The notes below the pieces were generated by a model. The model was not told the origin of the DNA and made no database searches. It saw only the letters and a program-made list of their open reading frames with translations. Positions 191-27,928 of a DNA stretch of 27,928 bases are shown here, piece by piece. Numbering within the stretch: position 1 is the first letter of the stretch; the number at the start of each line of letters is the position of its first letter. Source of the stretch: a virus. The stretch spans positions 1 through 27,928 of IMG/VR virus record IMGVR_UViG_3300032931_000574. One strand, given 5' to 3'. The position numbers and the translations under genes were made by a program.

Positions 191-3100
191 ACCTTTGCCA
201 ATGCCTCCAATATCACTTCAGGAACTCTGGCCGTCTCGCGGGGAGGTACCGGACAGTCCAGCTATTCCAACGGCGACCTGTTGATTGGTAACACAATCTC
301 TGGAGGATTAGATCGCGCCAATCTAACCCAGGGGTATGGCATCATTATCACGAACGGCAACGGGACCATTACCATCGATGCGGCCACTGGTAGGACCTAT
401 TATCTTGTCCTCTCTCAACCTTCGGATATTGCGACCTATAATGTGGCCCAACACGATCCTTCCACTGGCGCTGAAGTCAACACATCGGTAGTCTATACCG
501 GAACGGCCTATTCTCTGGCTAGTGTCTTTGCGACTCCTCCAGGTACTCCAGGTACGACCTTACTCCCGGCCGGGACCTATGGTCGGCATTTTCAAGCCAC
601 AACCGATGGGGTGAATAATGAAGCACAGATCCGAGTGGATCTCTATAAGTATGCGTCTAATACGCTGGAAACCCTACTTCGTTCCAATGAATCTCCTATT
701 TTCAATAGTGGTAATTCCTCGGTTCTGTTGGCATGGAATATCACTGATTCTACAGGTTATGCTCTGGCCGTAACAGATCGATTGGTCTGGAAAGTCTATG
801 CCCGTCGAGTTAGTGGAGGATCGGGCTCTGTGCGGGTGACCCTCTACTACGAAGGTACCGATAGAGCGTCATATTTCCCCACCACAATCCTGGCTCCGTC
901 GGCGGATGAAGTTGCTCGAACGTCTGCGGCGGCCGCGTTTGCGAAAGCCAATACGGCGAATGTCACTGGGGAAGCTGCGTTCGCTAAAGCGAATGTGGCA
1001 AATACGACGGCGGATGCTTCGATTGTCTTCGGACAAGCGGCCTTCAATAAAGCGAATACCGCGAACACCACAGCGGATGCTTCTATCGTGTTTGGTCAGG
1101 CGGCCTTCACGAAAGCCAATACCGCCAATACGACCGCCGATGCTTCGATTGTCTTCGGACAAGCGGCCTTCACGAAAGCCAATACCGCCAATGTCACAGC
1201 CGAAGCCGCGTTCGCAAAAGCCAATACCGCCAATGTCACAGCCGATGCTTCGATTGTCTTCGGACAAGCGGCCTTCACGAAAGCCAATACCGCCAATATC
1301 ACGGCGGAAGCGGCCTTTGCGAATGCGAACAATTCCATCAAAACATCAGCACAGATACGCGCCAACATTTCCAACACGGCTCCGATCAATTATGACCCTT
1401 CTACGGGGATCATTTCACAAGCTCTCTCAGGTGTCGCCGCCGCGATCTATGGAGGTGCCAATACGGTGCCTGTGGTCACGCTCGATACGTTCGGACGGGT
1501 GACCTTAGCCGCGAAGTCGGCCATCAATAATTTGAATGCTGCTGCGATTACCTCAGGCAATCTGGTCGTGGCTCGCGGTGGTACTGGATTATCGCTCGGT
1601 GCCGTCACGAATGGACAGATATTAATCGGGAATACCGTCAATGGCGGATTCGATCTGGCCTTTGTCACGAATACGGGTGCCGGCGGCATTATCGTGTCGA
1701 ACGATAAAGGGATTATCAATCTCACGGCCAACTTGGTCTGGATTCGTGGAAACATCTCGGCCACGACCCCTATCGTCTATACGCCGGCGACGGGCGTGAT
1801 TACCCATGCCACATCAGGCGTCTCGGCCACGATCTATGGAGGCGCCAACACGGTGCCAGTGGTCACGGTGGATACGTTCGGGCACATTACCTTAGCCGCG
1901 AACTCCGCAGTTAATAACCTCGATGCGTCAACCATCATCACAGGCAATCTGGTCGTGGCCCGTGGAGGTACCGGTCGTTCCCTCGGTGCGATCACCAATG
2001 GACAGTTATTAATCGGGAATACCACCAACTCAGGATTCGATCTCAATACCTTGACTCAAGGCTCTGGTATCGTCATTACCAACGGCAACGGGACGATCAC
2101 CATTGCGGCCACTGGAGGCTCAGCCGTCGATCAATATGCCCGTGATAAAGCAAACGGGGCCGTTCAACTCGGATATCCGAAACTTAATGTGGCCGCGAAT
2201 GCCACTCTGGTAGCAGCGACCACCAACAACGATACCCTTATCCTGATTCAAGGATCGGGAATTATTCTGACACCGAATGCCGGCAACAGCAGTATCGTGA
2301 TCAGTGCCTCGGGTGGATCAGCGGTCGATCAATACGCACGAGACAAAGCGAACGGTGCTGTGCAATTGGGGTACCCACGCATCAATGTGGCTTCCAATGC
2401 CACCCTCGTTGCCGCTGTGACCAACAATGATATTCTGATTCTCCTCGCAGGGAACAATACGGAACTGACCTCGAATGCCGCGCAAAGCAGTATTACCATT
2501 AGTGCGTTCGATGCCTATGCCCGCTCCAAAGCCAACGGCGCCGTTCAGCTTGGATACCCCTCCATCAATGTATCCTCCAATGCGACCCTGGTCTCGGCCA
2601 CCACCAATAATAGTATCCTCTTTCTGTTGCCTGGGGAAAGTGTCACTCTGACTCCGAACGCAGCCCAGAGTAGTATCACGATCAGTGCCCAGGATGCCTA
2701 TGCTCGCACAAAAGCCAACGGTGCAGTCCAACTCGGATATCCCAAGATCAATGTCGCGGCCAATGCGACACTGATTGCGGCGACTACCAACAACGATACC
2801 CTCTTCTTGATTGCTGGTACCAATATCACCTTGACACCGAATGCCGGGAATAGTAGTATCGTGATTTCATCGGCTGGTGGTTTCTCTGGCGTCTTGAATG
2901 TGGCCTCAGGCGGAACAGGCTTGACGCCAACGATTGTGAACGGCGCGATTTTGATCGGTAATACGGTCAATAGCGGTTTCGACCTTAATACCATCGCCAA
3001 CACAGGTACGGGTGGTATCCTCATTACGAATGGACAGGGGACAATAACATTAGCCGCGAATGTGATTTGGATGCGTGGCAATATCTCTGCAACCACCCCG

Positions 3101-5692
3101 ATCAGCTATGCACCAGCCACCGGAATCATTACTCACGCGACTTCAGGTGTCACGGCGACAGGATACGGCACCGCGGCTCAGATCCCAGTGTTTGTGGTCG
3201 ACGATAAAGGTCATCTGACTTCGGTGGTCAATACCGCCATTGCTGGATTGGATGCAGGCGTCATTACCACAGGAAGACTCGCCGTAGCGCGTGGTGGTAC
3301 GGGATTGACTCCTACGATTGTCAACGGGTCCATCCTCATCGGCAATACGGTGAACTCTGGCTTTGATCTGAATACGATAGCGAATACCGGTACGGGTGGT
3401 ATCTTGGTCACCAACGGTCAAGGGACGATTACACTAGCGGCCAATGTCATCTGGGTTCGTGGTAATGTGTCTAATACGGCCCCGATCAACTACGACCCCG
3501 CGACCGGAATTATTTCTCATGCCCTCTCAGGCATTGTCGCTACTAACCCATTTGGAACGGCTACCCTCATTCCCAAGATCACCGTGGATGATAAGGGGCA
3601 CATCACGGCCGTCACGAATACCGCCATTGCAGGCCTTGATGCAGGAGTTATCACCACAGGATCGTTAGTGGTCGCACGAGGTGGAACAGGATTGAATCCT
3701 ACTATTGTGAACGGCGCGATTTTGATCGGTAATACGGTCAACTCTGGATTCGATTTCAATACCATAGCGAACACTGGTACAGGTGGAATTCTTGTGACGA
3801 ATGGACAGGGTACGATTACCCTAGCAGCCAACGTCATCTGGATGCGTGGAAATATCGGTGCCATTACACCAATCAACTATACGGCCGCCAATGGAAACTT
3901 CACCCATGCTGGATCAGGCGTCACCGCAGCGATTTATGGAGGTGCGAATACCGTCCCGGTCATCACAGTCAATGAAACGGGACATATTACCCTGGCGGCG
4001 AACTCGGCCATCAACAATCTCGCTGCCTCGGCCGTCACGACTGGCAATCTGGTGGTCGCCCGTGGAGGCACAGGACGCTCATTAGGCGCGATCACCAATG
4101 GTCAAATCCTCATTGGGAATACCGTCAATTCTGGATTTGATTTGGCCACGATCTCGAATACGGGCCAAGGCGGGATTATTGTCTCGAACGATAAAGGGAT
4201 TATTAACCTCACGGCCAACTTGGTCTGGATACGGGGTAATATCTCGGCCACGACCCCAATCGTCTATGATCCAGTGGGCGGCGTGATTACCCACGCCACA
4301 TCAGGAGTCGCCGCCACGATCTATGGAGGCGCCAACACGGTGCCTGTAGTCACGGTCGATACCTTTGGACATATCACCCTGGCGGCGAACTCGGCCATCA
4401 ATAATTTGAACGCCTCGACCATTACGTCAGGCAATCTGGTCGTGGCTCGCGGTGGTACTGGATTATCTCTCGGTGCGGTGACCAATGGACAGATATTAAT
4501 TGGGAATACCGTGAATGGGGGATTTGATCTGGCCTTTGTCACGAATACAGGGACCGGTGGTATCATCGTCTCGAACGATAAAGGCATCATCAATCTCACG
4601 GCCAACTTAGTTTGGATACGGGGTAATATCTCTGCGACCACACCAATCGTCTATACGCCGGCGACGGGCGTGATTACTCATGCGACCTCAGGTGTCTCGG
4701 CCACGATTTATGGAGGTGCCAATACCGTTCCGGTCGTGACCGTGGATACCTTTGGTCATATTACACTTGCCGCAAACTCAGCCATCAATAACTTGAATGC
4801 CTCGACCATTACGTCAGGCAATCTGGTCGTGGCTCGCGGTGGTACTGGATTATCGCTCGGTGCCGTCACGAATGGTCAAATCCTCATCGGGAATACCGTC
4901 AATGGCGGATTCGATCTGGCCTTTGTCACGAATACAGGGACCGGCGGTATTATCGTGTCGAACGATAAAGGCATTATCAATCTCACGGCCAACCTGGTCT
5001 GGATACGCGGGAACATCTCTGCTACGACCCCGATTGTCTATACGCCGGCGACGGGCGTGATTACTCATGCGGCATCAGGCGTCTCGGCCACGATCTATGG
5101 AGGAGCAAATACTGTCCCAGTCGTGACCGTGGATACGTTCGGACATATCACGCTCGCGGCGAATTCCGCCATCAATAATCTGGATGCTTCGACGATCACC
5201 ACAGGGAATCTTGTGGTCGCCCGTGGAGGCACAGGACGATCACTGACCGCGGTGGCGAATGGACAACTCCTCATCGGCAATACCACGAATAACGGATTCG
5301 ATCTAGCGACATTGACTCAAGGTACGAATATCACGATCACCAATGGCAACGGGACGATCACCATTGCCTCCGCAGGTGGTGCCGCAGGGAACGGTTATGG
5401 TGTCATCAACATCGGAGGTACGGGATCAGCGAATATCAATTCCACCGCGGCCAACGATACCCTGAAGATTCTCGCGGGTGCGGGTATCATTCTGACGACC
5501 GATGCGGCAGCCGAATCCTTGACCATTGCAGCGACAGGAGGAGCGGCGACTGATCAGTTTGCCCGTGATACCGCAAATTCGGCATGGCTTCAGGCCAATA
5601 CCGCCAATGCCATTGCGAATAGTATTAGTGGAGGAACCAGCTTCGGAAAGATCCATGCCTATGTCGTAGGCTACGGGATCACGATGCAGTAA
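2..5692 (+). CDS. Giant repeat-rich tail fibre/adhesin-like structural protein (5' partial)
   Basis: The frame is open from base 2 and ends at TAA 5690-5692, so the N-terminus lies outside the window and the visible part is about 1896 residues. The apparent ATG at 281 is internal, because the same repeats run through it from the left edge. Visible layout: alanine-rich AAF.KAN.AN repeats (about 2-190); a first GGTG motif (about 240); a beta-type domain without repeats (about 390-890); more AAF.KAN repeats (about 925-1345); ARGGTG-type units of 128-129 residues; four YAR.KANGAVQLGYP units (2129-2875); then more ARGGTG units to about 5590. The C-terminus ends in YGITMQ. Such repeats are typical of trimeric phage fibres, and the position matches gp12/wac of T4, upstream of gp13. 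The role as a receptor-binding or whisker-like fibre is inferred. No chaperone or catalytic motif was recognised. Confidence 0.85.
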   Translation, partial: AAFAKANVANTTADASIVFGQAAFTKANTANVTGEAAFAKANLANILAQSAFVQANLAFDRANTFANASNITSGTLAVSRGGTGQSSYSNGDLLIGNTISGGLDRANLTQGYGIIITNGNGTITIDAATGRTYYLVLSQPSDIATYNVAQHDPSTGAEVNTSVVYTGTAYSLASVFATPPGTPGTTLLPAGTYGRHFQATTDGVNNEAQIRVDLYKYASNTLETLLRSNESPIFNSGNSSVLLAWNITDSTGYALAVTDRLVWKVYARRVSGGSGSVRVTLYYEGTDRASYFPTTILAPSADEVARTSAAAAFAKANTANVTGEAAFAKANVANTTADASIVFGQAAFNKANTANTTADASIVFGQAAFTKANTANTTADASIVFGQAAFTKANTANVTAEAAFAKANTANVTADASIVFGQAAFTKANTANITAEAAFANANNSIKTSAQIRANISNTAPINYDPSTGIISQALSGVAAAIYGGANTVPVVTLDTFGRVTLAAKSAINNLNAAAITSGNLVVARGGTGLSLGAVTNGQILIGNTVNGGFDLAFVTNTGAGGIIVSNDKGIINLTANLVWIRGNISATTPIVYTPATGVITHATSGVSATIYGGANTVPVVTVDTFGHITLAANSAVNNLDASTIITGNLVVARGGTGRSLGAITNGQLLIGNTTNSGFDLNTLTQGSGIVITNGNGTITIAATGGSAVDQYARDKANGAVQLGYPKLNVAANATLVAATTNNDTLILIQGSGIILTPNAGNSSIVISASGGSAVDQYARDKANGAVQLGYPRINVASNATLVAAVTNNDILILLAGNNTELTSNAAQSSITISAFDAYARSKANGAVQLGYPSINVSSNATLVSATTNNSILFLLPGESVTLTPNAAQSSITISAQDAYARTKANGAVQLGYPKINVAANATLIAATTNNDTLFLIAGTNITLTPNAGNSSIVISSAGGFSGVLNVASGGTGLTPTIVNGAILIGNTVNSGFDLNTIANTGTGGILITNGQGTITLAANVIWMRGNISATTPISYAPATGIITHATSGVTATGYGTAAQIPVFVVDDKGHLTSVVNTAIAGLDAGVITTGRLAVARGGTGLTPTIVNGSILIGNTVNSGFDLNTIANTGTGGILVTNGQGTITLAANVIWVRGNVSNTAPINYDPATGIISHALSGIVATNPFGTATLIPKITVDDKGHITAVTNTAIAGLDAGVITTGSLVVARGGTGLNPTIVNGAILIGNTVNSGFDFNTIANTGTGGILVTNGQGTITLAANVIWMRGNIGAITPINYTAANGNFTHAGSGVTAAIYGGANTVPVITVNETGHITLAANSAINNLAASAVTTGNLVVARGGTGRSLGAITNGQILIGNTVNSGFDLATISNTGQGGIIVSNDKGIINLTANLVWIRGNISATTPIVYDPVGGVITHATSGVAATIYGGANTVPVVTVDTFGHITLAANSAINNLNASTITSGNLVVARGGTGLSLGAVTNGQILIGNTVNGGFDLAFVTNTGTGGIIVSNDKGIINLTANLVWIRGNISATTPIVYTPATGVITHATSGVSATIYGGANTVPVVTVDTFGHITLAANSAINNLNASTITSGNLVVARGGTGLSLGAVTNGQILIGNTVNGGFDLAFVTNTGTGGIIVSNDKGIINLTANLVWIRGNISATTPIVYTPATGVITHAASGVSATIYGGANTVPVVTVDTFGHITLAANSAINNLDASTITTGNLVVARGGTGRSLTAVANGQLLIGNTTNNGFDLATLTQGTNITITNGNGTITIASAGGAAGNGYGVINIGGTGSANINSTAANDTLKILAGAGIILTTDAAAESLTIAATGGAATDQFARDTANSAWLQANTANAIANSISGGTSFGKIHAYVVGYGITMQ
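925..1350 (+). repeat. Heptad-periodic AAF.KAN.AN repeats, copy set 2
   Basis: At least seven AAF[AT]KAN.AN units of 21 or 14 residues occur in tandem. The DNA also repeats closely, for example the phrase around GATTGTCTTCGGACAAGCGG at about 1020, 1150 and 1253. The segment precedes the first full ARGGTG unit and probably forms a trimeric coiled-coil stalk. Confidence 0.8.
1562..2125 (+). repeat. 129-residue ARGGTG repeat units, array A
   Basis: The LVVARGGTG motif starts at 1562 and again at 1949, exactly 387 bases (129 codons) apart. Each unit runs ARGGTG, NGQ.LIGNT, a GGI/TNG.GTI strand, W.RGNIS.T.PI.Y, an ATIYGGANTVPVVTVDTFG strand, NNL.A. and TGN. The second unit breaks off into the YAR repeat block. 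Confidence 0.85.
2129..2875 (+). repeat. Four tandem YAR.KANGAVQLGYP units
   Basis: Units begin at codons 2129, 2327, 2510 and 2693, with spacings of 66, 61 and 61 codons. Each contains YAR.KANGAVQLGYP, then N..SNATL..A.TNN. and a closing N[A].[QN]SSI.IS strand. The block interrupts the ARGGTG series. Confidence 0.85.
2894..5596 (+). repeat. 128-129-residue GGTG repeat units, array B
   Basis: GGTG motif segments begin at 2894, 3278, 3665, 4049, 4436, 4823 and 5210, giving spacings of 384, 387, 384, 387, 387 and 387 bases. The first copy reads ASGGTG, the others ARGGTG. Copies from 4436 onward are close at DNA level to array A: the 62 bases at 4814-4875 are identical to 1553-1614. Confidence 0.85.
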
Positions 5693-9377: not shown

Positions 9378-10517
9378 ATGAAAACCTTCAAGCAACACCT
9401 CTCTGAATCCACCAGCAGGCTCAATGGTCTGCGGATCTCCCGTCTGGTGGATTTTCTGACTGAGACCTTTCTGGCGGAGACCCCATTCCTGGGTGCGACG
9501 ATGCGACCGTTTCCCCATGATGAACTCCAGGCCTATCTGGGTCGTTCGGTCACCAAGACCAAGTTGCAGGGCGATAAGTATAAGATGCCCTATATTCACG
9601 GGAGCAATATTCAGGTCACCGGGGAAGAAGGCAAGGCCTATGATCTGGATGCCCTGAAGAAATTGATCACCCAGCGACCAGCCAGAATTACCAAGCAGAA
9701 CGAGAAGATGCAGCATTCCGATGGGACCAGCAGCATCTTCTTCAATGTCGGTCTCCCGGCCCTCAAAGGTCTGGCGGTCAATGAAAAGACAGGGGAATTT
9801 GTCATTGTGGATACCTGCCCTGGGGCCGGGGCCTGCAAGACCTATTGCTATGCCATGAAGGGTGGCTATGTCCAGTGGAAAGCCTCTAGTCTGGGGGTCA
9901 CGCGAGTCCTGAACTTCTTGCTCAATGATCCTGATGGTTTCAAGCATCTCCTCTCGACCGAACTCCAAGACGCCGAGCGCAAGTATTCGAAGAAGGGGAC
10001 CAAGGTCGTGGTCCGCTGGCATGATGCCGGAGACTTCTTTAGCCCTGAGTATATGGAAGTGGCCTATTCGGTGGCACGACAATTTCCCAATATTGATTTC
10101 TATGCCTATACCAAGATCGCGGCTGTGGCACAGTCGAACAAGCCGGCGAACTTCAAAATGAACTTTAGCCAGGGTGCCCAGCCTTCCCAAGAGAAGATGA
10201 TTGACTTTGCGCGGACCAAGCATTCCAAGGTCGTCCAAAAAGACCTGTTCATGGATCTGATTGCTCGCAAGGGGACCTCCCTGATTCGGGATGTCCAGGG
10301 GCGTATGCAGTTCCGCGATGCGGCCGCCTTGGAAGAATTCAAGCACCGCATGGCCCATAAATATGCGTTACAAGTGGATACCATTATCACCTATGATGAA
10401 ATGATGAAGATGCCCCTGGGTCCGACACCCCATTGGAATGTCCTGGTCTGGTCGGGGCATGGGGATGATTCTGCCAATCGCCATGATGTGATTGGGACCT
10501 ATTTGCTCCTGCATTAA
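9378..10517 (+). CDS. GP88-like protein with CX5CX3C motif and capsid-targeting-like N-terminus
   Basis: 379 residues. The core resembles the mycobacteriophage GP88 family, which has no assigned function: C147-P-G-A-G-A-C153-K-T-Y-C157-Y-A, then R213-W-H-D-A-G-D-F-F and F-Y-A-Y-T-K (241-246). The three cysteines in CX5CX3C could bind a metal or Fe-S cluster. The R.HDAGDFF...YAYTK part recalls the barrel of DUF5131/Gp37-Gp68 proteins, which are related to radical SAM enzymes, but the classic CX3CX2C is absent. The first ten residues, MKTFKQHLSE, closely match the T4 internal-protein targeting peptide (MKTYQEFIAE), and LxE sites occur at E10, E29 and E34. Directly downstream is iscU. It may be a packaged Fe-S enzyme; family assignment is fairly good, function is speculative. 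Confidence 0.7.
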   Translation: MKTFKQHLSESTSRLNGLRISRLVDFLTETFLAETPFLGATMRPFPHDELQAYLGRSVTKTKLQGDKYKMPYIHGSNIQVTGEEGKAYDLDALKKLITQRPARITKQNEKMQHSDGTSSIFFNVGLPALKGLAVNEKTGEFVIVDTCPGAGACKTYCYAMKGGYVQWKASSLGVTRVLNFLLNDPDGFKHLLSTELQDAERKYSKKGTKVVVRWHDAGDFFSPEYMEVAYSVARQFPNIDFYAYTKIAAVAQSNKPANFKMNFSQGAQPSQEKMIDFARTKHSKVVQKDLFMDLIARKGTSLIRDVQGRMQFRDAAALEEFKHRMAHKYALQVDTIITYDEMMKMPLGPTPHWNVLVWSGHGDDSANRHDVIGTYLLLH

Positions 10518-10525
10518 GGGGATTT

Positions 10526-10909
10526 ATGGCCTATTCAGAAAAAGTCATTGACCATTTCACAAACCCCCGCAACATGGGGAGTTTTGATAAGTCTCTCAAG
10601 GAGATTGGGACCGGTATGGTTGGGGCACCTGAATGTGGTGATGTGATGAAGCTCCAGATCAAAGTGGAGAATGAAGTCATCGTGGATGCGAAGTGGAAAA
10701 CCTTTGGCTGCGGGTCTGCTATTGCTAGTTCCAGTCTGGCAACCGAATGGCTCAAAGGCAAGACGATTGAAGAAGCCACAACGATCAAGAATACCGATAT
10801 TGTGAATGAACTGAATTTGCCACCAGTTAAAATTCATTGTTCGGTACTGGCAGAAGACGCCATCAAAGCGGCCCTATATAACTATAAGAAGAAACAAGAG
10901 GTTGGATAA
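10526..10909 (+). CDS. iscU: Fe-S cluster assembly scaffold IscU
   Basis: 127 residues, the normal IscU length. IscU is the scaffold on which the cysteine desulfurase IscS and an iron donor build [2Fe-2S] clusters, later released by the HscA/HscB chaperones. All ligands are present: C37 and D39 in GAPECGDVM, C62 in FGCGSAIASSS, and H104-C105 in KIHCSVLAEDAIKAA. The HscA-binding motif LPPVK is at 98-102. It therefore looks functional and able to use the host IscS and HscA; no desulfurase or chaperone is coded in the window. The start ATG lies eight bases after the GP88-like gene, with a weak AAGGGG upstream. Compared with Escherichia coli IscU, the match is near full-length. It is an auxiliary metabolic gene within a structural operon. 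Confidence 0.96.
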   Translation: MAYSEKVIDHFTNPRNMGSFDKSLKEIGTGMVGAPECGDVMKLQIKVENEVIVDAKWKTFGCGSAIASSSLATEWLKGKTIEEATTIKNTDIVNELNLPPVKIHCSVLAEDAIKAALYNYKKKQEVG

Positions 10910-10953
10910 TATGACTGAAGCATTGAGGTGATGTGTCTTTTGGGAGGTTTACT

Positions 10954-11694
10954 ATGGCGTGTATTGTCTATGTTACCACAAATCTTATAAACGGGAAGAA
11001 GTATCTTGGAAAACATAATAAGGCCATTTCAGCCTATTTGGGTTCCGGTACTCTTCTCAAGAAGGCCATTCATAAATATGGCAAGAATTCTTTCTTCAAA
11101 ACGACCATAGCTGAATGTGCAACAGAGCAAGAAGCGTATGACCTCGAAGAACGGCTCTCTCGTCAATGGAATGTGGTATCTGACCCCAATTGGTATAATC
11201 TGAAATGTGGCGGTGAAGGGAGTCGGTCTGGGAGCGATCACCCCGAATATGGAACAAAGCACAGTTTGGCTAGGAGATTAGCGAACAGCGAAGCCCAGAA
11301 GAATAGCACCGCTGCTCGGCGCAATGTACAAAATCTTATTGCATTGCATACAGGAAAGATCAACAGTGATGAATATAAAAGGAAGATGAGTGATTCATGC
11401 CGAAAGAGTGAGAAGGTTCAAGCCCACAATAAACGATTGAATGAACAGCTAACCTCAGAGAGGCGCCGAGAGATAACACTGATGACAATGGCGGCAAGAC
11501 CCGAATTACTTGATCGACTCAGAGAACTGAAAAATAATCGTAAAGGTGTACCACAAACGATAGAACATATCAACAAACGCATTATCGCCTTACGAGGAAG
11601 AAAATGTTCTATCATAACCTGCCCTCATTGTAGTATTTCTGGGGGAAATTCTATAATGAGGCGTTGGCATTTCAATAACTGCAAAAGGAAGTAA
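10954..11694 (+). CDS. GIY-YIG homing endonuclease 1 (free-standing)
   Basis: 246 residues from ATG 10954, which has GGGAGG upstream; an in-frame GTG at 10933 would add seven residues and is less likely. The N-terminal nuclease domain shows IVYVTTNLINGKKYLGKH (the GIY and YIG strands), YLGSGTLLKKAIHKYG, and PNWYNLKCGGEG at its end. The middle is basic and helical. The C-terminus has a putative zinc finger, CPHC with RRWHFNNCK, common in such enzymes. These enzymes cut related genomes that lack the gene and spread by repair. It separates iscU from iscA and ends two bases before the iscA start. The base composition is visibly AT-richer than the flanking structural genes, which suggests separate acquisition. 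Confidence 0.88.
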   Translation: MACIVYVTTNLINGKKYLGKHNKAISAYLGSGTLLKKAIHKYGKNSFFKTTIAECATEQEAYDLEERLSRQWNVVSDPNWYNLKCGGEGSRSGSDHPEYGTKHSLARRLANSEAQKNSTAARRNVQNLIALHTGKINSDEYKRKMSDSCRKSEKVQAHNKRLNEQLTSERRREITLMTMAARPELLDRLRELKNNRKGVPQTIEHINKRIIALRGRKCSIITCPHCSISGGNSIMRRWHFNNCKRK

Positions 11695-11695
11695 G

Positions 11696-12016
11696 ATGAT
11701 ATCTATAACAAAGTCGGCCCTAATTAAATTGCAATCACTTCTCTCCGACGAACAAAAAGGTGTATTTTTTAGAATAGCGGTGGTCGGAGGGGGGTGTTCT
11801 GGCTACTCATACAAAATGACATTCGAGGAACAGATGGGGGATGACGATAATCTAATACCCAATTTGGAAGTGCCTATTGTTATTGATGGTCAGAGTATGC
11901 CATTGATCTCAGGCTCCGTGGTCGATTATTCTGATTCATTGCAAGGGGCAGGATTCCAGATCAAGAATCCGGCCGCGAAAACCACCTGCGGCTGCGGGAG
12001 TTCGTTTGGAACATGA
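11696..12016 (+). CDS. iscA: A-type Fe-S carrier protein (IscA/ErpA/HesB family)
   Basis: 106 residues, full length for the family. These proteins take clusters from IscU-type scaffolds and pass them to apo-enzymes. The three conserved cysteines are present: C34 in GGGCSGYSYKM, and C98 and C100 in TTCGCGSSF near the C-terminus. The GGGCSG, VDY and NP.AKTTCGCGSSF features are close to ErpA as well as IscA, so the exact subtype is open. AAGGAAG precedes the ATG, which is one base beyond the endonuclease stop. The last codon region overlaps the next gene by ATGA. With iscU it forms a scaffold-plus-carrier pair, split by the endonuclease gene. The 5' two thirds use AT-rich codons (ATA, TTA), unlike the 3' end. 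Confidence 0.93.
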   Translation: MISITKSALIKLQSLLSDEQKGVFFRIAVVGGGCSGYSYKMTFEEQMGDDDNLIPNLEVPIVIDGQSMPLISGSVVDYSDSLQGAGFQIKNPAAKTTCGCGSSFGT

Positions 12017-12213
12017 TGACGACCTGGATCTTATGGGCCGTGCTCACGCTGGTCACCCCGACCGCACAGGTGGTCATACCTGTGGATGAATTTGCCCAGA
12101 AGGATTCATGTAAGGCATCCTTGAAGGCCATTGCCGAAGAAATGGCCGCGATTGCACCCGAGAATATCACCACCGTCACCTTGACTTGTATCCCAGTGGG
12201 AATGAGAGACTAA
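12013..12213 (+). CDS. Small secreted-looking protein coupled to iscA
   Basis: 66 residues, not recognised. The N-terminus MMTTWILWAVLTLVTPTAQ is a hydrophobic stretch of about 18 residues that could be a signal peptide or a membrane anchor; there is no lipobox. The rest contains two cysteines (KDSCKAS and TLTCIPV), which could pair if exported. The start overlaps the iscA stop as ATGA, and its stop overlaps the next start as TAATG, so translation is probably coupled across the cassette. Codon use is GC-rich and like the structural genes. A link to iron or Fe-S handling is suggested only by position. Confidence 0.6.
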   Translation: MMTTWILWAVLTLVTPTAQVVIPVDEFAQKDSCKASLKAIAEEMAAIAPENITTVTLTCIPVGMRD

Positions 12214-12812
12214 TGGAAGCCTTTGTGTATTGCTGGACAGATTTTCAGACCAATAAACTTTATGTGGGTGTGCATAAGGGGGCACCTGATGATGGGTATG
12301 TCTGTTCCAGCAAGATCATGCTGCAAGAACACAAGAAAAGACCTCATGAGTTTTCTAGGCAGATTATAGGGCGGGGAACATTTGACGATTGTTATGCACT
12401 TGAAACAGCAATTTTGAAAACTGTTGAGGCAGCGAAATCCCCTGAGTTCTATAATCAACATGAAAATAATGGAAAATTTCATATGGCAGGGAAGAGGCAC
12501 ACAGAAGAATCAAAAGAAAAGATGAAAGGTTGTCAGAATAGATTGGGAAAGTTTGGCCATAAGGACTCTGAATCAACAAGAGAAAAAAAGAGAAAAATGA
12601 GACTCGGAAAGACCTATGATGTGAACACCCGACAAAAAATAGCAGAGGCGAAGTCTATGTGGTGGGTGGTTTCTACACCAAATGGTACCACCGAACGTGT
12701 AAAGAATCTTGCCCTCTACTGTAGGCGCAACGACCTCAGCAGATCACATATGGTATCTCGTGGGAAAACTAAGGGATTCTTTTGTGAAAGAATGGTGACC
12801 TGTGGCGACTAA
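12213..12812 (+). CDS. GIY-YIG homing endonuclease 2 (free-standing)
   Basis: 199 residues from ATG 12213, overlapping the previous stop as TAATG; an in-frame TTG at 12186 is less likely. FVYCWTDFQTNKLYVGVHKG is the nuclease start, with VY and YVG as the GIY and YIG strands. YALETAILKTV likely carries the catalytic glutamate region. RHTEESKEKMKG is a NUMOD3-type DNA-binding motif, with further SxxTREKKRKM and NTRQKIAEA repeats. The C-terminal part (WWVVSTPNGTTERVKNLALY, then RRNDLSRSHM and GKTKGFFCERM) resembles a small DNA-binding module common in phage endonucleases. The gene sits immediately before gp14 and its last 11 bases contain the gp14 GTG start. It is AT-rich compared with its neighbours. 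Confidence 0.85.
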   Translation: MEAFVYCWTDFQTNKLYVGVHKGAPDDGYVCSSKIMLQEHKKRPHEFSRQIIGRGTFDDCYALETAILKTVEAAKSPEFYNQHENNGKFHMAGKRHTEESKEKMKGCQNRLGKFGHKDSESTREKKRKMRLGKTYDVNTRQKIAEAKSMWWVVSTPNGTTERVKNLALYCRRNDLSRSHMVSRGKTKGFFCERMVTCGD

Positions 12813-14995: not shown

Positions 14996-15475
14996 ATGAG
15001 CAGCCTTGATGATTCCCTCTCTGACATCTTAGATGTCGAACCGATGTCCTCCTATACCGAAAACGGATCGGAGGTCGTGGTGTATGGTGATCCCTCGGCC
15101 CCTGCCCCGCCTGTGCCGGTGCGGACCAGCGACGAGGATATCATCGAAGATGCGGCCCTGGTCCGACAGAATATCAAAGGTCTTCTGGACAAAGGCGGAA
15201 GGGCCTTGTCCTCCCTCATTGAGATTTCCAATGAGAACCAACACCCCCGTTCCTTTGAAGTGGTCGCCACGATGCTCAAGACCCTCTCGGAGATGAATCA
15301 CGATCTCCTGAGTACCCATAAAGTCAAGCGCGATCTGATCAAAGGTGAGCCGCCCATTCCTCAAGGTAATACGACGATTCATGCCAACCAAGCCGTCTTC
15401 TTTGGTTCGACCGCTGAGTTGGCGGCACGAATGAAAGCACAAAAAGAAAGTTCTGCCAATGTATCACATCTATAA
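14996..15475 (+). CDS. gp16: Small terminase subunit gp16 (T4-like)
   Basis: 159 residues, close to T4 gp16 (164). The small subunit recognises DNA and stimulates the large subunit ATPase during packaging. The central coiled-coil domain is clear: EDAALVRQNIKGLLDKGGRA, LSSLIEISNENQHPRSFEVV and ATMLKTLSEMNHDLL, with the HPR(A/S)FEVV signature. The N-terminal 45 residues are acidic and proline-rich, and the C-terminal tail (NTTIHANQAVFFGSTAEL) is flexible-looking. GAGGT precedes the ATG. The last 17 bases overlap the start of a homing endonuclease gene, so the final five residues lie in shared sequence. Confidence 0.93.
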   Translation: MSSLDDSLSDILDVEPMSSYTENGSEVVVYGDPSAPAPPVPVRTSDEDIIEDAALVRQNIKGLLDKGGRALSSLIEISNENQHPRSFEVVATMLKTLSEMNHDLLSTHKVKRDLIKGEPPIPQGNTTIHANQAVFFGSTAELAARMKAQKESSANVSHL

Positions 15476-16109
15476 AATCACTAATCAGATCAACAGAAAG
15501 TCGTATGTGGGTATTACCTCTAAGACACCTGAGGTAAGGTGGAAATCCCACCAGTATAGAGCATCTAAAGGATCACATACCCACTTCCATAGAGCCATAC
15601 AAAAATATGGCGCAGCTACCTTCTTGTTGACCATCTTAGAAAAAGGTGATGATTTAAAAGTGGGGCTCCTACGAGAACAACATTGGATTACCACAACCCA
15701 TGCCCAATACAACGAAACGGCTGGGGGTCAAGGGTGCCTCTCCCCCTCACTATCTGCCCGCAAAAAAATGGGACGGGATATGAAGGGTCCAAACAACCCA
15801 TTCTTTAGAAAATCTCATTCTCAAACAACGCGAGACATCATAGGAAAAAAGAATTCAGGAAAAACACGATCCAAAAATTGGCGCGGGTTGATGGCGGACA
15901 AAAATACAAAAGAGGGTAACCCTATGTGGGGGAGGTCGCATACCAACCAAACCATCGAAGTATTCAAAAAGATCAATTCTGGATGTGGTAACCCGATGTT
16001 TGGCAAAACACAACCCCTGACCAGTTGTATCTTTTGTAGAACAGCGGTCGGGGTCAATGCCATTCCTCGATGGCATGGCGAAACGTGCAGGTCTCGTCGT
16101 GGCAAGTAA
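15459..16109 (+). CDS. GIY-YIG homing endonuclease 3, between the terminase subunits
   Basis: 216 residues. YHIYKITNQINRKSYVGITS is a classic GIY-YIG start, with the catalytic arginine in the following helix (EVRWKSH). HRAIQKYGAATFLLTILEK and LREQHWITTTHAQYNETAGG complete the nuclease domain. Three NUMOD3-like DNA-binding motifs follow: GPNNPFFRKSHS, GNPMWGRSHT and GNPMFGKTQ. A C-terminal putative zinc finger has CIFC and HGETC. The gene begins inside the gp16 coding end (17-base overlap) and ends inside the gp17 start (35 or 53 bases, depending on the gp17 start). It is AT-richer than the terminase genes, so it is probably a later insertion into the gp16-gp17 junction. Confidence 0.9.
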   Translation: MYHIYKITNQINRKSYVGITSKTPEVRWKSHQYRASKGSHTHFHRAIQKYGAATFLLTILEKGDDLKVGLLREQHWITTTHAQYNETAGGQGCLSPSLSARKKMGRDMKGPNNPFFRKSHSQTTRDIIGKKNSGKTRSKNWRGLMADKNTKEGNPMWGRSHTNQTIEVFKKINSGCGNPMFGKTQPLTSCIFCRTAVGVNAIPRWHGETCRSRRGK

Positions 16110-23132: not shown

Positions 23133-23396
23133 ATGCACACATTCAAATCGTTTATCACAGAATTGAAATCCTCCACCCTGGGTCGGTATATCAAGACCGC
23201 CGCGGGGGACCTGACACACCAGTCCGTCTTATTGAAGCAATATAAGAAGGATTATCCTGGTAACAACAGTCCGACAGAACAAAAACTGCTCGATCAGAAA
23301 ATTCGTGCGGTCAAGAAACGAAACCATGGGATTGGACAAGCGACGAATCGGCTGGTCAATCGTGTTTGGGGCCATTCCAAAGGAAAAGACAACTAA
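23133..23396 (+). CDS. Small basic head-region protein with capsid-targeting-like N-terminus
   Basis: 87 residues, strongly basic. The first ten residues, MHTFKSFITE, resemble the T4 capsid-targeting peptide (MKTYQEFIAE), with an ITE site at residue 10 that fits the gp21 cleavage rule (hydrophobic-x-Glu). The next part, LKSSTLGRYIKTAAGDLTHQ, carries an L.k.TLG.YIKkAa motif common in small proteins of the prohead region of T4-like phages. The C-terminus is rich in Lys, Arg and Asn (IRAVKKRNHGIGQATNRLVN). This could be an internal head protein packaged with DNA. The start lies nine bases after the previous stop, with only a weak ribosome site. Confidence 0.65.
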   Translation: MHTFKSFITELKSSTLGRYIKTAAGDLTHQSVLLKQYKKDYPGNNSPTEQKLLDQKIRAVKKRNHGIGQATNRLVNRVWGHSKGKDN

Positions 23397-24644: not shown

Positions 24645-25043
24645 ATGGCACAAATTGAAATCACCAAAGGCGGAAAACGCGCCGTGACATTGGTCGCCGT
24701 CGGAACTGGCGCGGCCACCATTGAACTGAATGGTGCTGGCGGGCTCTCGTCATTCAATGTCGCGTCTGAAAATGTGACCACCCTCTCGGTCAAAGGTATC
24801 GCCTGGACGGCCAACTCTGGAGCCGCCTATTGGGAGGTGCGCCGTGGTGGATCGACCGGAAACATTGTCGGACAATTTCCAAATGCGGGTGAGTGGCGCT
24901 TGGATGAATACAAAACCTCGCTGTCGGCCAACAATATGCTGAATGCCTATAATGTCTATGTCAATCTGATTGGCGTCGGTTCCATCGGCACCCTCGTCCT
25001 GGATTGTTCCAAGGATGCAACTATGAATGTGAAGGTGCCATAA
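24645..25043 (+). CDS. Small beta-rich putative virion protein
   Basis: 132 residues; AAGGAG precedes the ATG. The sequence alternates in beta fashion with few charged helices: IEITKGGKRAVTLVAVGTGA, TTLSVKGIAWTANSGAAYWE, VRRGGSTGNIVGQFPNAGEW and VYVNLIGVGSIGTLVLD. Proteins with this WEV.RG...v..f...GeW pattern are frequent in structural regions of environmental tailed phages, but I know of no function. It might be a decoration or head-surface protein given its place before gp21 and gp23. It ends with a TAATG overlap onto the protease gene. Confidence 0.65.
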   Translation: MAQIEITKGGKRAVTLVAVGTGAATIELNGAGGLSSFNVASENVTTLSVKGIAWTANSGAAYWEVRRGGSTGNIVGQFPNAGEWRLDEYKTSLSANNMLNAYNVYVNLIGVGSIGTLVLDCSKDATMNVKVP

Positions 25044-25702
25044 TGAAACTGATCCGAGAATTCAACGAAAGCGTCAAGCTCCTGACCGAAGCGGATACCA
25101 CAGGCAAGAAGGCCTATTACATCGAAGGCGTCTTCATGCAAGCCGGGATTGCCAACAAGAACAAGCGCCTGTATTCCTTGGATATCTTGAAAGAAGAAGT
25201 GAGTCGTTATACCACAGAAATGGTCAAGCTGAGTCGGGCCTATGGTGAACTTGGGCATCCTGATAGTCCGACCATTAATCTTGAGCGCGTCTCCCACATG
25301 ATCAAAGCCTTGACCTTAGAAGGGGCCAACTTCGTCGGTCGTGCGAAGGTCATGGATACGCCGTATGGCAACATCGTGAAATCATTGATCGATGAGGGTG
25401 CTCAACTCGGCGTCTCTAGTCGCGGCATGGGGAATCTGGTTCCAGGTCCCAATGGGATCAATACGGTCCATGATTTCCATCTGGCCACGGCCGCGGATAT
25501 CGTCGCTGATCCGTCTGCCCCTGATGCGTTTGTTCGTGGTATCATGGAAGGCAAGGAATGGGTCTTTGTTGACGGTCGATATGTCGAAGAAGATATGTCC
25601 TGTGCCAAACGCGCCATCGAACAATCCTATCGATCCATAGATCGCCGTGAGCAAGAACGAGTCGCCATTCGGTTGTTTGAAGGGTTCATGAGAAAGTTGT
25701 AA
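25043..25702 (+). CDS. gp21: Prohead core protease gp21 (T4-like)
   Basis: 219 residues (T4: 212) from ATG 25043, overlapping the previous stop as TAATG. This serine protease of the herpesvirus-assemblin-like clan cleaves the scaffold and capsid proteins during head maturation. The catalytic His lies in YGELGHPDSP (H72) and the Ser in LGVSSRGMGN (S125 or S126). Other family features are AYYIEGVFMQAGIANKNKRL, RVSHMIKALTLEGANFVGRA and DTPYGNIVKSLIDEG. The N-terminus MKLIREFNESVKLLTEAD contains LTE followed by Ala, a likely self-cleavage site after E16. Genes for its expected substrates (gp67-like, gp22, gp23) flank it. Confidence 0.95.
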   Translation: MKLIREFNESVKLLTEADTTGKKAYYIEGVFMQAGIANKNKRLYSLDILKEEVSRYTTEMVKLSRAYGELGHPDSPTINLERVSHMIKALTLEGANFVGRAKVMDTPYGNIVKSLIDEGAQLGVSSRGMGNLVPGPNGINTVHDFHLATAADIVADPSAPDAFVRGIMEGKEWVFVDGRYVEEDMSCAKRAIEQSYRSIDRREQERVAIRLFEGFMRKL

Positions 25703-25766: not shown

Positions 25767-26927
25767 ATGTCGAAAAATCATTTGATGGAAGCCGCTGCGG
25801 ATATTCTTTCACGAAGCTATGCAGCCGCACCAAAAGCACCACTAGAGAAAGCTGCCGGATCAGCACAGGACCTTGGTGGTTCAACACCCGAAAGCAATAT
25901 CAGCAAGAAGTTTGCACCACAGACTGGTCCAGGGGCCACCGCACCTGGTAAGCCTGCCTCTGTCGCAGCCATGCCATTAGACAAGCAAGCCGCACCAGAA
26001 GAAATCGATCCTCTTGATCCCCAGGGTGGTACTGGCGATTCCGCCGAGAATGATGCCCTGATCGCCGCCAACAAGAAACGCGCAGGTCTGGCCGAAGAAA
26101 AGTCAGATAAGGACGATGACGATAAGGACGATGACGATAAGGACGATGACGATAAGGACGATGACGACGACGACAAGGACGACGAGAAGGCCGCCTTCGA
26201 TTTCAAGAAGAAACTCGGAGAAGATGTCGCCGCCATTTTGCAGGATGAATCGGATCTGTCTCCTGAATTCCGTACCAAGATTGCCACGATCTATGAAGCT
26301 CGCGTCATTGACAAGATCAATGAAATCGCGGCAGATATGCAAGCCTCCTATGATGCCCAATTGACCGAATCGATCCAGACATTGGGTGAGGAATTGACCA
26401 CCAAGACCAACGACTATCTCAATTATGTCGTGGAAGAATGGATGGGCGCCAATGAACTCGCCGTGGTCTCGGGTCTCCGTTCCGAACTGGTCGAAGAATT
26501 CATCGGTGGACTCCATACCCTCTTTGCCGAACACTTCATCGATGTCCCTGAGAACAAGGTGGACCTGGTTGAAGAATTAGCGGCCAAGGTCGAAACCCTG
26601 GAAACGACATTGAACGAGGAAATCGCTCGTGGCGTCTCCCTCAAGAAGCAAATCGCCGAATCAAAGAAATCAGAAATATTGGCATCCGTGTGTGAAGGCT
26701 TGACTGCACCGGCCGCCGATAAAATTCGTACCCTCGCAGAGAGCGTCGAATTCACCGCAGAAGGTGACTTTCGTAAGAAAGTGGATGTACTTCGAGAGAA
26801 TTACTTCCCAACCAAAGTCAAGGTCGCAGAGGTCACGCAGTTAAACGAAGTGGTCGAGTTGGCGCCTGAAGTACCTGCCTCCATGAAGGCGTACTCCGAT
26901 GCCATTGCTCGTCAGACCATCAAGTAA
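25767..26927 (+). CDS. gp22: Prohead core scaffold protein gp22 (T4-like)
   Basis: 386 residues (T4: 269). It is the main scaffold that shapes the prohead and is removed by gp21. Placement between protease and capsid genes, and the long helical charged body, identify it: FDFKKKLGEDVAAILQDESD, LSPEFRTKIATIYEARVIDK, TNDYLNYVVEEWMGANELAV, ELVEEFIGGLHTLFAEHFID and the C-terminal YFPTKVKVAEV region are typical of the family. The N-terminal 110 residues are low-complexity, rich in Ala and Pro. They are followed by an Asp/Lys stretch (about 112-141) encoded by exact 15-base repeats. LAE and IAE sequences (GLAEE, QIAES, TLAES) could be gp21 sites. AAAGGAG precedes the ATG. Confidence 0.92.
   Translation: MSKNHLMEAAADILSRSYAAAPKAPLEKAAGSAQDLGGSTPESNISKKFAPQTGPGATAPGKPASVAAMPLDKQAAPEEIDPLDPQGGTGDSAENDALIAANKKRAGLAEEKSDKDDDDKDDDDKDDDDKDDDDDDKDDEKAAFDFKKKLGEDVAAILQDESDLSPEFRTKIATIYEARVIDKINEIAADMQASYDAQLTESIQTLGEELTTKTNDYLNYVVEEWMGANELAVVSGLRSELVEEFIGGLHTLFAEHFIDVPENKVDLVEELAAKVETLETTLNEEIARGVSLKKQIAESKKSEILASVCEGLTAPAADKIRTLAESVEFTAEGDFRKKVDVLRENYFPTKVKVAEVTQLNEVVELAPEVPASMKAYSDAIARQTIK
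26106..26165 (+). repeat. Four exact 15-base repeats encoding DKDDD
   Basis: GATAAGGACGATGAC occurs at 26106, 26121, 26136 and 26151, in frame with gp22. A decayed continuation reaches about 26190. Copy number is a likely point of length variation. Confidence 0.9.
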
Positions 26928-26959: not shown

Positions 26960-27928
26960 ATGTTTTTATCAGAAGGATTACAGAACAAGTGGAAGTCGAT
27001 CTTGGATCATCCAAGTCTTCCTCCGATTACTGACCCCTATCGCAAGGCAGTGACCGCCGTCATCTTGGAAAACCAAGAGAAGGCCTCACGCGAAGAACAA
27101 GCCCAGATGCACGGCACGTTCTTGTCCGAAGCCTCGGCAACCAACTCCACAGGTGGTGGTCTCGGTGGCGCCGCAACCGCAACTGGTCCAATGGCCGGTT
27201 TCGATCCCATCCTCATCAGCTTGGTTCGCCGTTCCTTGCCTAACCTCATTGCCTATGACATCTGCGGCGTGCAGCCAATGACCGGTCCAACTGGATTGAT
27301 CTTCGCCATGCGCTCCAATTATGCCAACAGCAACACCCGTCTGGGAGAAACCTTCTACGACGAAGTGGATACCGCATTCTCTGGTGGTACTGGTGTGGCA
27401 CAAACTGCCATCTCCTTGGCCGCAGATACCTCACTCGGTTCCGGTAACGTGTTCGCCTCGACCATGACCACTGGTAACGCGATGCCAACAGCCACAGGGG
27501 AAGCCTTGGGTACTGCATCAGCCGTCGCCGGCGGAGTCTGGAACGAAATGTCCTTCTCCATCGAAAAAGTGACCGTCACCGCGAAGACTCGCGCTCTGAA
27601 GGCCGAATACACGATGGAATTGGCACAGGATTTGAAGGCCGTTCACGGATTGGATGCAGAGACAGAATTGTCGAACATCTTGTCAGCAGAAGTGTTGGCA
27701 GAAATCAACCGCGAAATCCTCCGCAACATCTATGTGTCCTCCAAGGTCGGTTGCCAAGTGGGTACCACGACCAAGGGCACCTTCGACCTCGATACCGATT
27801 CCAATGGTCGTTGGATGGTGGAAAAGATCAAGGGATTGGCGTTCCAAATCGAACGCGAAGCCAACCAAATCTCCAAGCAGACTCGTCGCGGCAAGGGCAA
27901 TGTGTTGATCGTGTCTTCGGACGTGGCC
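26960..27928 (+). CDS. gp23: Major capsid protein gp23 (T4-like, 3' partial)
   Basis: The first 323 residues are visible; the frame is open at the right edge. ATG 26960 follows AAGGAGATTCATACT. Strong family matches include FDPILISLVRRSLPNLIAYD, ICGVQPMTGPTGLIFAMRSN, WNEMSFSIEKVTVTAKTRAL, KAEYTMELAQDLKAVHGLDA and LSAEVLAEINREILRNIY. It has the HK97 fold by family. The N-terminal prosegment probably ends in TFLSE followed by ASATN: LSE at residues 55-57 fits the gp21 cleavage rule and corresponds to E65 of T4. Residues 1-57 would be removed in maturation. No T4-style dedicated late promoter is visible directly upstream, so it may be transcribed from the box before gp22. Confidence 0.96.
   Translation, partial: MFLSEGLQNKWKSILDHPSLPPITDPYRKAVTAVILENQEKASREEQAQMHGTFLSEASATNSTGGGLGGAATATGPMAGFDPILISLVRRSLPNLIAYDICGVQPMTGPTGLIFAMRSNYANSNTRLGETFYDEVDTAFSGGTGVAQTAISLAADTSLGSGNVFASTMTTGNAMPTATGEALGTASAVAGGVWNEMSFSIEKVTVTAKTRALKAEYTMELAQDLKAVHGLDAETELSNILSAEVLAEINREILRNIYVSSKVGCQVGTTTKGTFDLDTDSNGRWMVEKIKGLAFQIEREANQISKQTRRGKGNVLIVSSDVA

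Follow-up and report, generated by a model that had tools for sequence, protein, structure and literature searches.

Most knowledge of the capsid-targeting peptide (CTS) of phage T4 comes from a few enterobacterial phages, and T4 Alt is a packaged and injected ADP-ribosyltransferase. For IPIII, residues -10 to -1 (MKTYQEFIAE) are annotated as a removed peptide in record X04567. Mutational work on IPIII assigned residues 4 and 7 to targeting and residues 8 and 10 to processing (PMC9026906), the same article summarizing the work of Mullaney and Black on the CTS of IPII and IPIII. The CTS is common to IPII and IPIII and not to other core proteins (PMC9958956), the IP genes of T4 and its close relatives are recognized by their signal sequence (PMC12373910, PMC9026906), and IPI-III, T4 proteins with CTS peptides, are injected (PMC12373910). 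CTS-tagged cargo is, in this sense, already known from T4 and close relatives.

The window analyzed here, the whole stretch of 27,928 bases from a virus record, encodes a T4-type structural module and a protein of the GP88 family (Table 1), a family common in phages and unexplained. The translation of ORF 9378-10517 begins MKTFKQHLSESTSRLNGLRISRLVDFLTETFLAETPFLGATMR, and its N-terminus can be divided as MKTFKQHLSE/STSRLNGLRISRLVDFLTE/TFLAE/TPFLGATMR, slashes marking candidate cuts here and below. The three LxE tripeptides reported in the first-pass annotation (LSE, LTE, and LAE, the last ending at nucleotide 9479) are confirmed by translation, and the alignment that it proposed with IPIII (MKTYQEFIAE/A) is correct. 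GP88 shares with IPII and IPIII a 10-residue N-terminal MKT[YF]xxx[IL]xE/, in a phage that has gp21, gp22, and gp23. Compared with IPIII, positions 4 (Y to F), 8 (I to L), and 10 (E) are kept, whereas position 7 is H instead of F. Both processing residues are present (L8 and E10); at the targeting positions GP88 has F4 and H7, with homologues L009 and L011 matching both. On the other hand, GP88 differs from IPII and IPIII in its cargo, an enzyme-like protein of 345 aa rather than a small basic inhibitor, and in an additional cut site, E34, that is stricter.

T4 Alt is like GP88 in being an enzyme with a short N-terminal propeptide, and its injection is the model for that of GP88. Nonetheless, the targeting peptide is not shared with Alt, as had been claimed: the ADP-ribosyltransferase starts with MELITELFDE, whereas the three-cysteine protein of the window starts with MKTFKQHLSE. 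The T4 proteins gp24 (MAKINELLRE/S) and gp23 (GSFLTE/A) show the same hydrophobic spacing before E as GP88, although both are shell proteins and the gp23 propeptide has 65 residues. The LSE tripeptide noticed earlier at the predicted gp23 cut of the window was also found, GTFLSE/ASATNS (E57) aligning with GSFLTE/AEIGG (E65) of T4 gp23. Moreover, the gp21 of the window carries LLTE/A at residues 13-16 of its own N-terminus.

Table 1. Features of the window discussed in the text (a single number is the position noted for the gene; a slash marks a putative cut)
Feature	Position	Strand	Basis or remark
gp13-like adaptor	8405
GP88-family protein, 379 aa; tag and linker 1-34, folded domain about 38-379	9378..10517	+
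CTS-like peptide MKTFKQHLSE, residues 1-10; first putative gp21 site LSE/S	9378..9407	+
LTE, residues 27-29	9456..9464	+	Homologue alignment; conserved in near relatives only
LAE, residues 32-34; putative main gp21 site	9471..9479	+	E34 invariant
Predicted mature enzyme T35-H379	9480..10514	+	E34 site and model
C147-x5-C153-x3-C157, the protein's only cysteines; probable Fe-S/metal ligands	9816..9848	+
HDAGDFF motif, residues 215-221	10020..10040	+	WHDAGDFF in 80/80 homologues
IscU Fe-S scaffold, untagged	10526..10909	+	TIGR01999 above cut-off; PF01592
ErpA/IscA-type Fe-S carrier, untagged	11696..12016	+	TIGR00049 above cut-off; PF01521
gp14 neck protein	12802		PF11649
gp15	13983
Terminase	14996, 16057
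Sheath and tube genes			Part of the T4-type module
Portal	20484
87-aa protein starting MHTFKSFITE/L, beside head genes	23133..23396	+	Translation
gp21-type prohead protease	25043..25702	+	PF03420, E 2e-34
gp22-type scaffold	25767..26927	+	PF25623, E 3.7e-58
gp23 major capsid protein, runs off the window end	26960..27928	+	PF07068, E 2.1e-86
FLSE at predicted gp23 cut (after E57)	27119..27130	+	Aligns with T4 FLTE/A, E65

The N-terminal extension of GP88 and its candidate cleavage sites

The Pfam GP88 model (PF17338) matches with an E-value of 7.6e-32 and 111.4 bits (gathering cut-off 24.4) and spans residues 137-289 only. In the AlphaFold (AF2) model, the fold begins near residue 40: pLDDT is 43-50 for residues 1-39 and mostly 70-96 from residue 41, except for 151-170. 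On the basis of this model, the N-terminal extension is probably disordered.

At the border between extension and domain, E34 is found in all 26 aligned homologues, and the position two residues upstream is L, V, or M. Also, in each of the 78 homologues of sufficient length, [LIVM]xE is found no more than 12 residues ahead of the LGA motif, against a background of 7% for a 13-residue stretch of the same homologues. The site stays at the domain border despite 60-400 extra residues after the SLDxFV motif, being mostly E/A in these long-insert homologues (IAE/APGDFGLGA, LME/AKLGG, and LSE/APFGLGS). Because a conserved site at the domain border looks like a maturation site, E34 would be the best candidate for the main gp21 cut. 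The first-pass annotation had placed the putative cut after residue 10 and counted LTE and LAE as further sites; E10 is kept as a candidate and E34 becomes the best-supported cut, whereas LTE at 27-29 is dropped as a third site, not being conserved in the alignment beyond near relatives.

The tag pattern was defined by hydrophobic residues at -6, -3, and -2 and E(0) at residue 8-14, with H also permitted at -3. It is present in 77% of divergent GP88 homologues (27/35, E being permitted for them up to residue 16, which gains two matches). In the 11 GP88-bearing records used as background (ten related genomes and the window), it is found in 48/2026 other proteins, a group that contains GP88 itself, and in 4/123 core T4 orthologues, that is, about 2-3%. 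Fisher tests of homologues against background gave very small values, although the homologues are related by descent and the counts are not independent. Since ancestry is shared, the argument rests on the pattern being kept while the peptide sequence diverged, as in MKTFKQHLSE, MALRKFRHFISE, MDIRNILNIITE, MKLIDLLTE, and MKIHEIITE. There are exceptions: the tag is missing from homologue L047 (genome G009), E10 is replaced by Q in L016 and L019, and variants such as MRFYELFES, MRASELFES, and MKIFEV are seen in L055, L042, and others. The tag pattern in 27/35 homologues and the E34 site in 78/78 are not due to chance.

For a single protein, the same pattern says less. When calibrated on T4, it picks out 11 of the 260 gene calls, of which roughly half are head proteins, so that a match in one protein amounts to about even odds and is weak evidence. 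The T4 matches include IPII, IPIII, Alt, gp24, gp2, and gp61.1, but also DNA ligase and mobB. Furthermore, the gp14 neck protein of relatives (L006-L017) has an N-terminus, MPTNQFFNFFPE, that fits the pattern as a false positive. The pattern alone is not specific, DNA ligase, mobB, and this gp14 fitting it by chance.

The three-cysteine site and the neighboring Fe-S genes

The motif C-x5-C-x3-C is present in 80/80 GP88 homologues, with exactly three cysteines in those homologues in which they were counted. This motif recurs, in the same or nearly the same form, in GP88 proteins from phages that are not T4-type, and both it and HDAGDFF are seen again in distant GP88 proteins. The PF17338 proteins of mycobacteriophages and Streptomyces phages share CP-x(4,5)-C-x3-CYA and RxHxxGDFF-type motifs with the GP88 of the window, whereas they lack both the N-terminal tag and the E34-type site. 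The GP88 proteins of mycobacteriophage D29, Streptomyces phage Gilgamesh, and one archaeal virus start at the domain, with neither tag nor linker. No cultured phage with the tagged form of the window was present in the collection searched, nor did virion proteomics turn up for any close relative.

In near relatives, GP88 lies between gp13 and gp14, followed by IscA in 13/22 cases and by IscU in 4/22. A comparison of GP88 with solved structures gave no significant match, NifB being among the best PDB matches (E 0.07 and 0.12). Membership among the radical SAM enzymes was not supported, the motif being C-x5-C-x3-C instead of the canonical CxxxCxxC and the fold match not significant. A search for DUF5131 in the related genomes was negative. 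In this case, the initial description of GP88 as an Fe-S or metal enzyme has indirect support: the invariant cysteines and the IscU and ErpA/IscA neighbors make it likely that the protein carries a metal or Fe-S site, while the comparison with solved structures lends the idea no significant match.

Some other features of the window can be mentioned here. Homing-endonuclease-like ORFs are found inside the structural module at 10933-11694, 12186-12812, and 15459-16109, two of the three adjoining the Fe-S genes. The two ORFs between gp13 and gp14 resemble GIY-YIG homing endonucleases by eye, and the ORF at 15459 has GIY-YIG and NUMOD3 matches. A 1803-aa ORF at 281-5692 with repeated AFxKANTANTTADASIVFGQ units is probably a tail fibre. 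PADLOC detected no defence family.

Tag-like N-termini on unrelated proteins of T4-type phages

Only one other tag-like N-terminus occurs in the window, MHTFKSFITE in the 87-aa protein beside the head genes, for which no family match was obtained. A search for similar N-termini among the 31 genes of the window alone gave nothing, and the same comparison within G001/G002 did not exceed the null. When applied to T4, this unbiased within-genome comparison recovers IPI, IPII, IPIII, and gp61.1, and in G007, G010, and G015 it recovers clusters of unrelated proteins that start with MRLQELxE or MRxxEFLxE. For G010 and G015, the total pair counts lie above an internal-Met null; for G007 they do not, and its cluster is distinguished by sequence and position only. 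In G007 as in G010, GP88 belongs to a group of clustered, mutually unrelated genes that share the lineage's own tag, MRxxELxE. Also, unrelated large proteins of G015 (loci L153-L165; for example at 77500-78513, 86204-88474, and 89464-93376) start with MRAxEFLxE, a second dialect of the tag, and one of them has a GH19 chitinase/endolysin domain.

A scan of IMG/VR with back-translated M-K-T-F-K-[QE]-F-x-x-E retrieved at least 128 ORFs in at least 60 unrelated families. When the scan placed no constraint on residues 8-10, [LIVMF]xE ends at residue 9-11 in 77% of the further matches and at other offsets in 1-5%; the 77% excludes loci already taken by the stricter scan and is, if anything, low. Since all synonymous codons occur in the tags of the IMG/VR matches, selection acts on the peptide and not on the RNA. 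Moreover, gp23 or the T4 portal is found in 12/20 long tagged contigs compared with 0/13 controls (p about 4e-4, hypergeometric estimate), these controls being chosen by an unrelated DNA word and somewhat shorter than the tagged contigs. Some tagged contigs, which are fragments or other phages, have no T4-type head gene, and a search of the tagged contigs for a T7-type connector, run without a positive control, found none. Within the GP88-bearing records, gp21 is detected in 13/20, several of the remaining ones being short fragments.

Regarding the proteins that bear these tags, Pfam matches comprise an ADP-ribosyltransferase domain, a glucosaminidase, GH19, a lytic transglycosylase domain, and GNAT, together with a weak Zeta-like match. 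Several tagged proteins of the IMG/VR loci L181-L412 are ADP-ribosyltransferase-like, in parallel to T4 Alt: L378 by a Pfam match, and L254, L275, and L188 by a YRG-like motif only. In the records behind L046 and L225 (L538:847-2628 and L539:395-2152), an insertion of about 1 kb, in frame and with intein-like ends (C... to ...GN/S), interrupts the gp21-type protease just after the conserved GELxHP motif.

A connection between the tag and a known gp21 site is provided by T4 gp61.1 (NC_000866.4 18966-19130, 54 aa), which starts with MKTFKEFIKE. This protein aligns with gp23 residues 57-93 across the cut (z 12.7), with the last residue of its tag, E10, opposite gp23 E65. Judging by this alignment, gp61.1 resembles the N-terminal arm of gp23 and may be a tagged mimic of it. 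Mimicry of the gp23 arm was not extended to tagged mini proteins in general, the only convincing cases being L280 (z 13.7) and gp61.1 itself.

Proposed packaging and processing, and possible fates, of GP88

Based on these comparisons, we consider it probable that GP88 is a capsid-targeted and gp21-processed head cargo with a three-cysteine, probably Fe-S, site, which would be injected with the DNA. The evidence is at the level of sequence, namely, the tag, the conserved sites, the low-confidence extension, gp21/gp22/gp23, and the Fe-S neighbors, and from it we infer every physical step. GP88 would be expressed late with the neck genes, and its Fe-S or metal site would probably be loaded by the neighboring IscU and ErpA/IscA-like proteins before packaging. 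As the prohead assembles, residues 1-10 would then dock the protein on the scaffold core of gp22, and gp21 would remove the extension, with the main cut after E34 and probably another one after E10, leaving mature T35-H379 in the head to enter the next host with the DNA. The parts of this reading differ in strength. Packaging and cleavage, already proposed in the first-pass annotation, are well supported as predictions by conservation among homologues, by the phage's own gp21, gp22, and gp23, by the T4 control, and by the tags on unrelated proteins, whereas for injection and early action the T4 IPs and Alt offer a plausible analogy.

An alternative that accepts the targeting and trimming is that GP88 acts in assembly only, for example as a scaffold-associated factor, or is retained in the particle instead of being injected. 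The tag and the cut sites are silent on ejection; moreover, in T4 the core proteins gp22, gp67, and gp68 are degraded by gp21, and gp24 has such an N-terminal peptide and yet belongs to the shell. Nevertheless, the catalytic-looking combination of three cysteines and HDAGDFF and the cut at the fold border suggest that a mature enzyme is preserved, and the T4 proteins IPI-III, with their CTS peptides, are injected (PMC12373910). We therefore regard this fate as unlikely.

The remaining alternatives deny the head location or the meaning of the tag. That the N-terminus is an ordinary amphipathic start, serving folding or partner binding, and resembles the T4 CTS by coincidence would agree with the roughly 50% precision of the pattern alone in T4 and with the H that the window clade has at residue 7, a targeting determinant of IPIII. 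However, the 77% of GP88 homologues against a background of 2-3%, the E34-type site in 78/78, the lack of an extension where the phage has no T4-type head, and the occurrence of tags of the same class on at least 60 unrelated families make such a coincidence very improbable. At a probability that we place slightly lower still, GP88 would bind iron at the neck or tail, in line with the Ferrojan horse idea, with an N-terminus serving that location. The gene order gp13-GP88-(IscU)-(IscA)-gp14 of near relatives speaks for this proposal, but in G007 and G010 GP88 is not beside gp13/gp14 and sits in the tagged-gene cluster with a tag-like start and an E34-type site. Also, the tag resembles that of head cargo and not of tail proteins, only 4/123 core T4 orthologues matching the pattern. 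Injected head cargo is thus the reading that we retain for GP88.

A broader proposal is more tentative, and we would sooner doubt than assert it: in environmental T4-type phages, one peptide class may load dozens of unrelated proteins into the head, GP88 being among them a pre-assembled Fe-S enzyme, its cluster supplied by the phage's IscU/ErpA-type carriers and its extension trimmed by gp21 on packing, that acts in the next host before phage gene expression. No description of CTS tags across environmental phages, or of GP88 or Fe-S cargo, was found in the literature searched, subscription papers lying outside it. If the proposal is true, a ready-made metal-cluster enzyme with adjoining cluster-assembly genes would be a new class of cargo, and the GP88 family would gain a time and a place of action. 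Moreover, in many uncultured phages the same code would mark what is loaded into the head, and candidate injected proteins, for the most part of no known function, could be listed from their N-termini alone.
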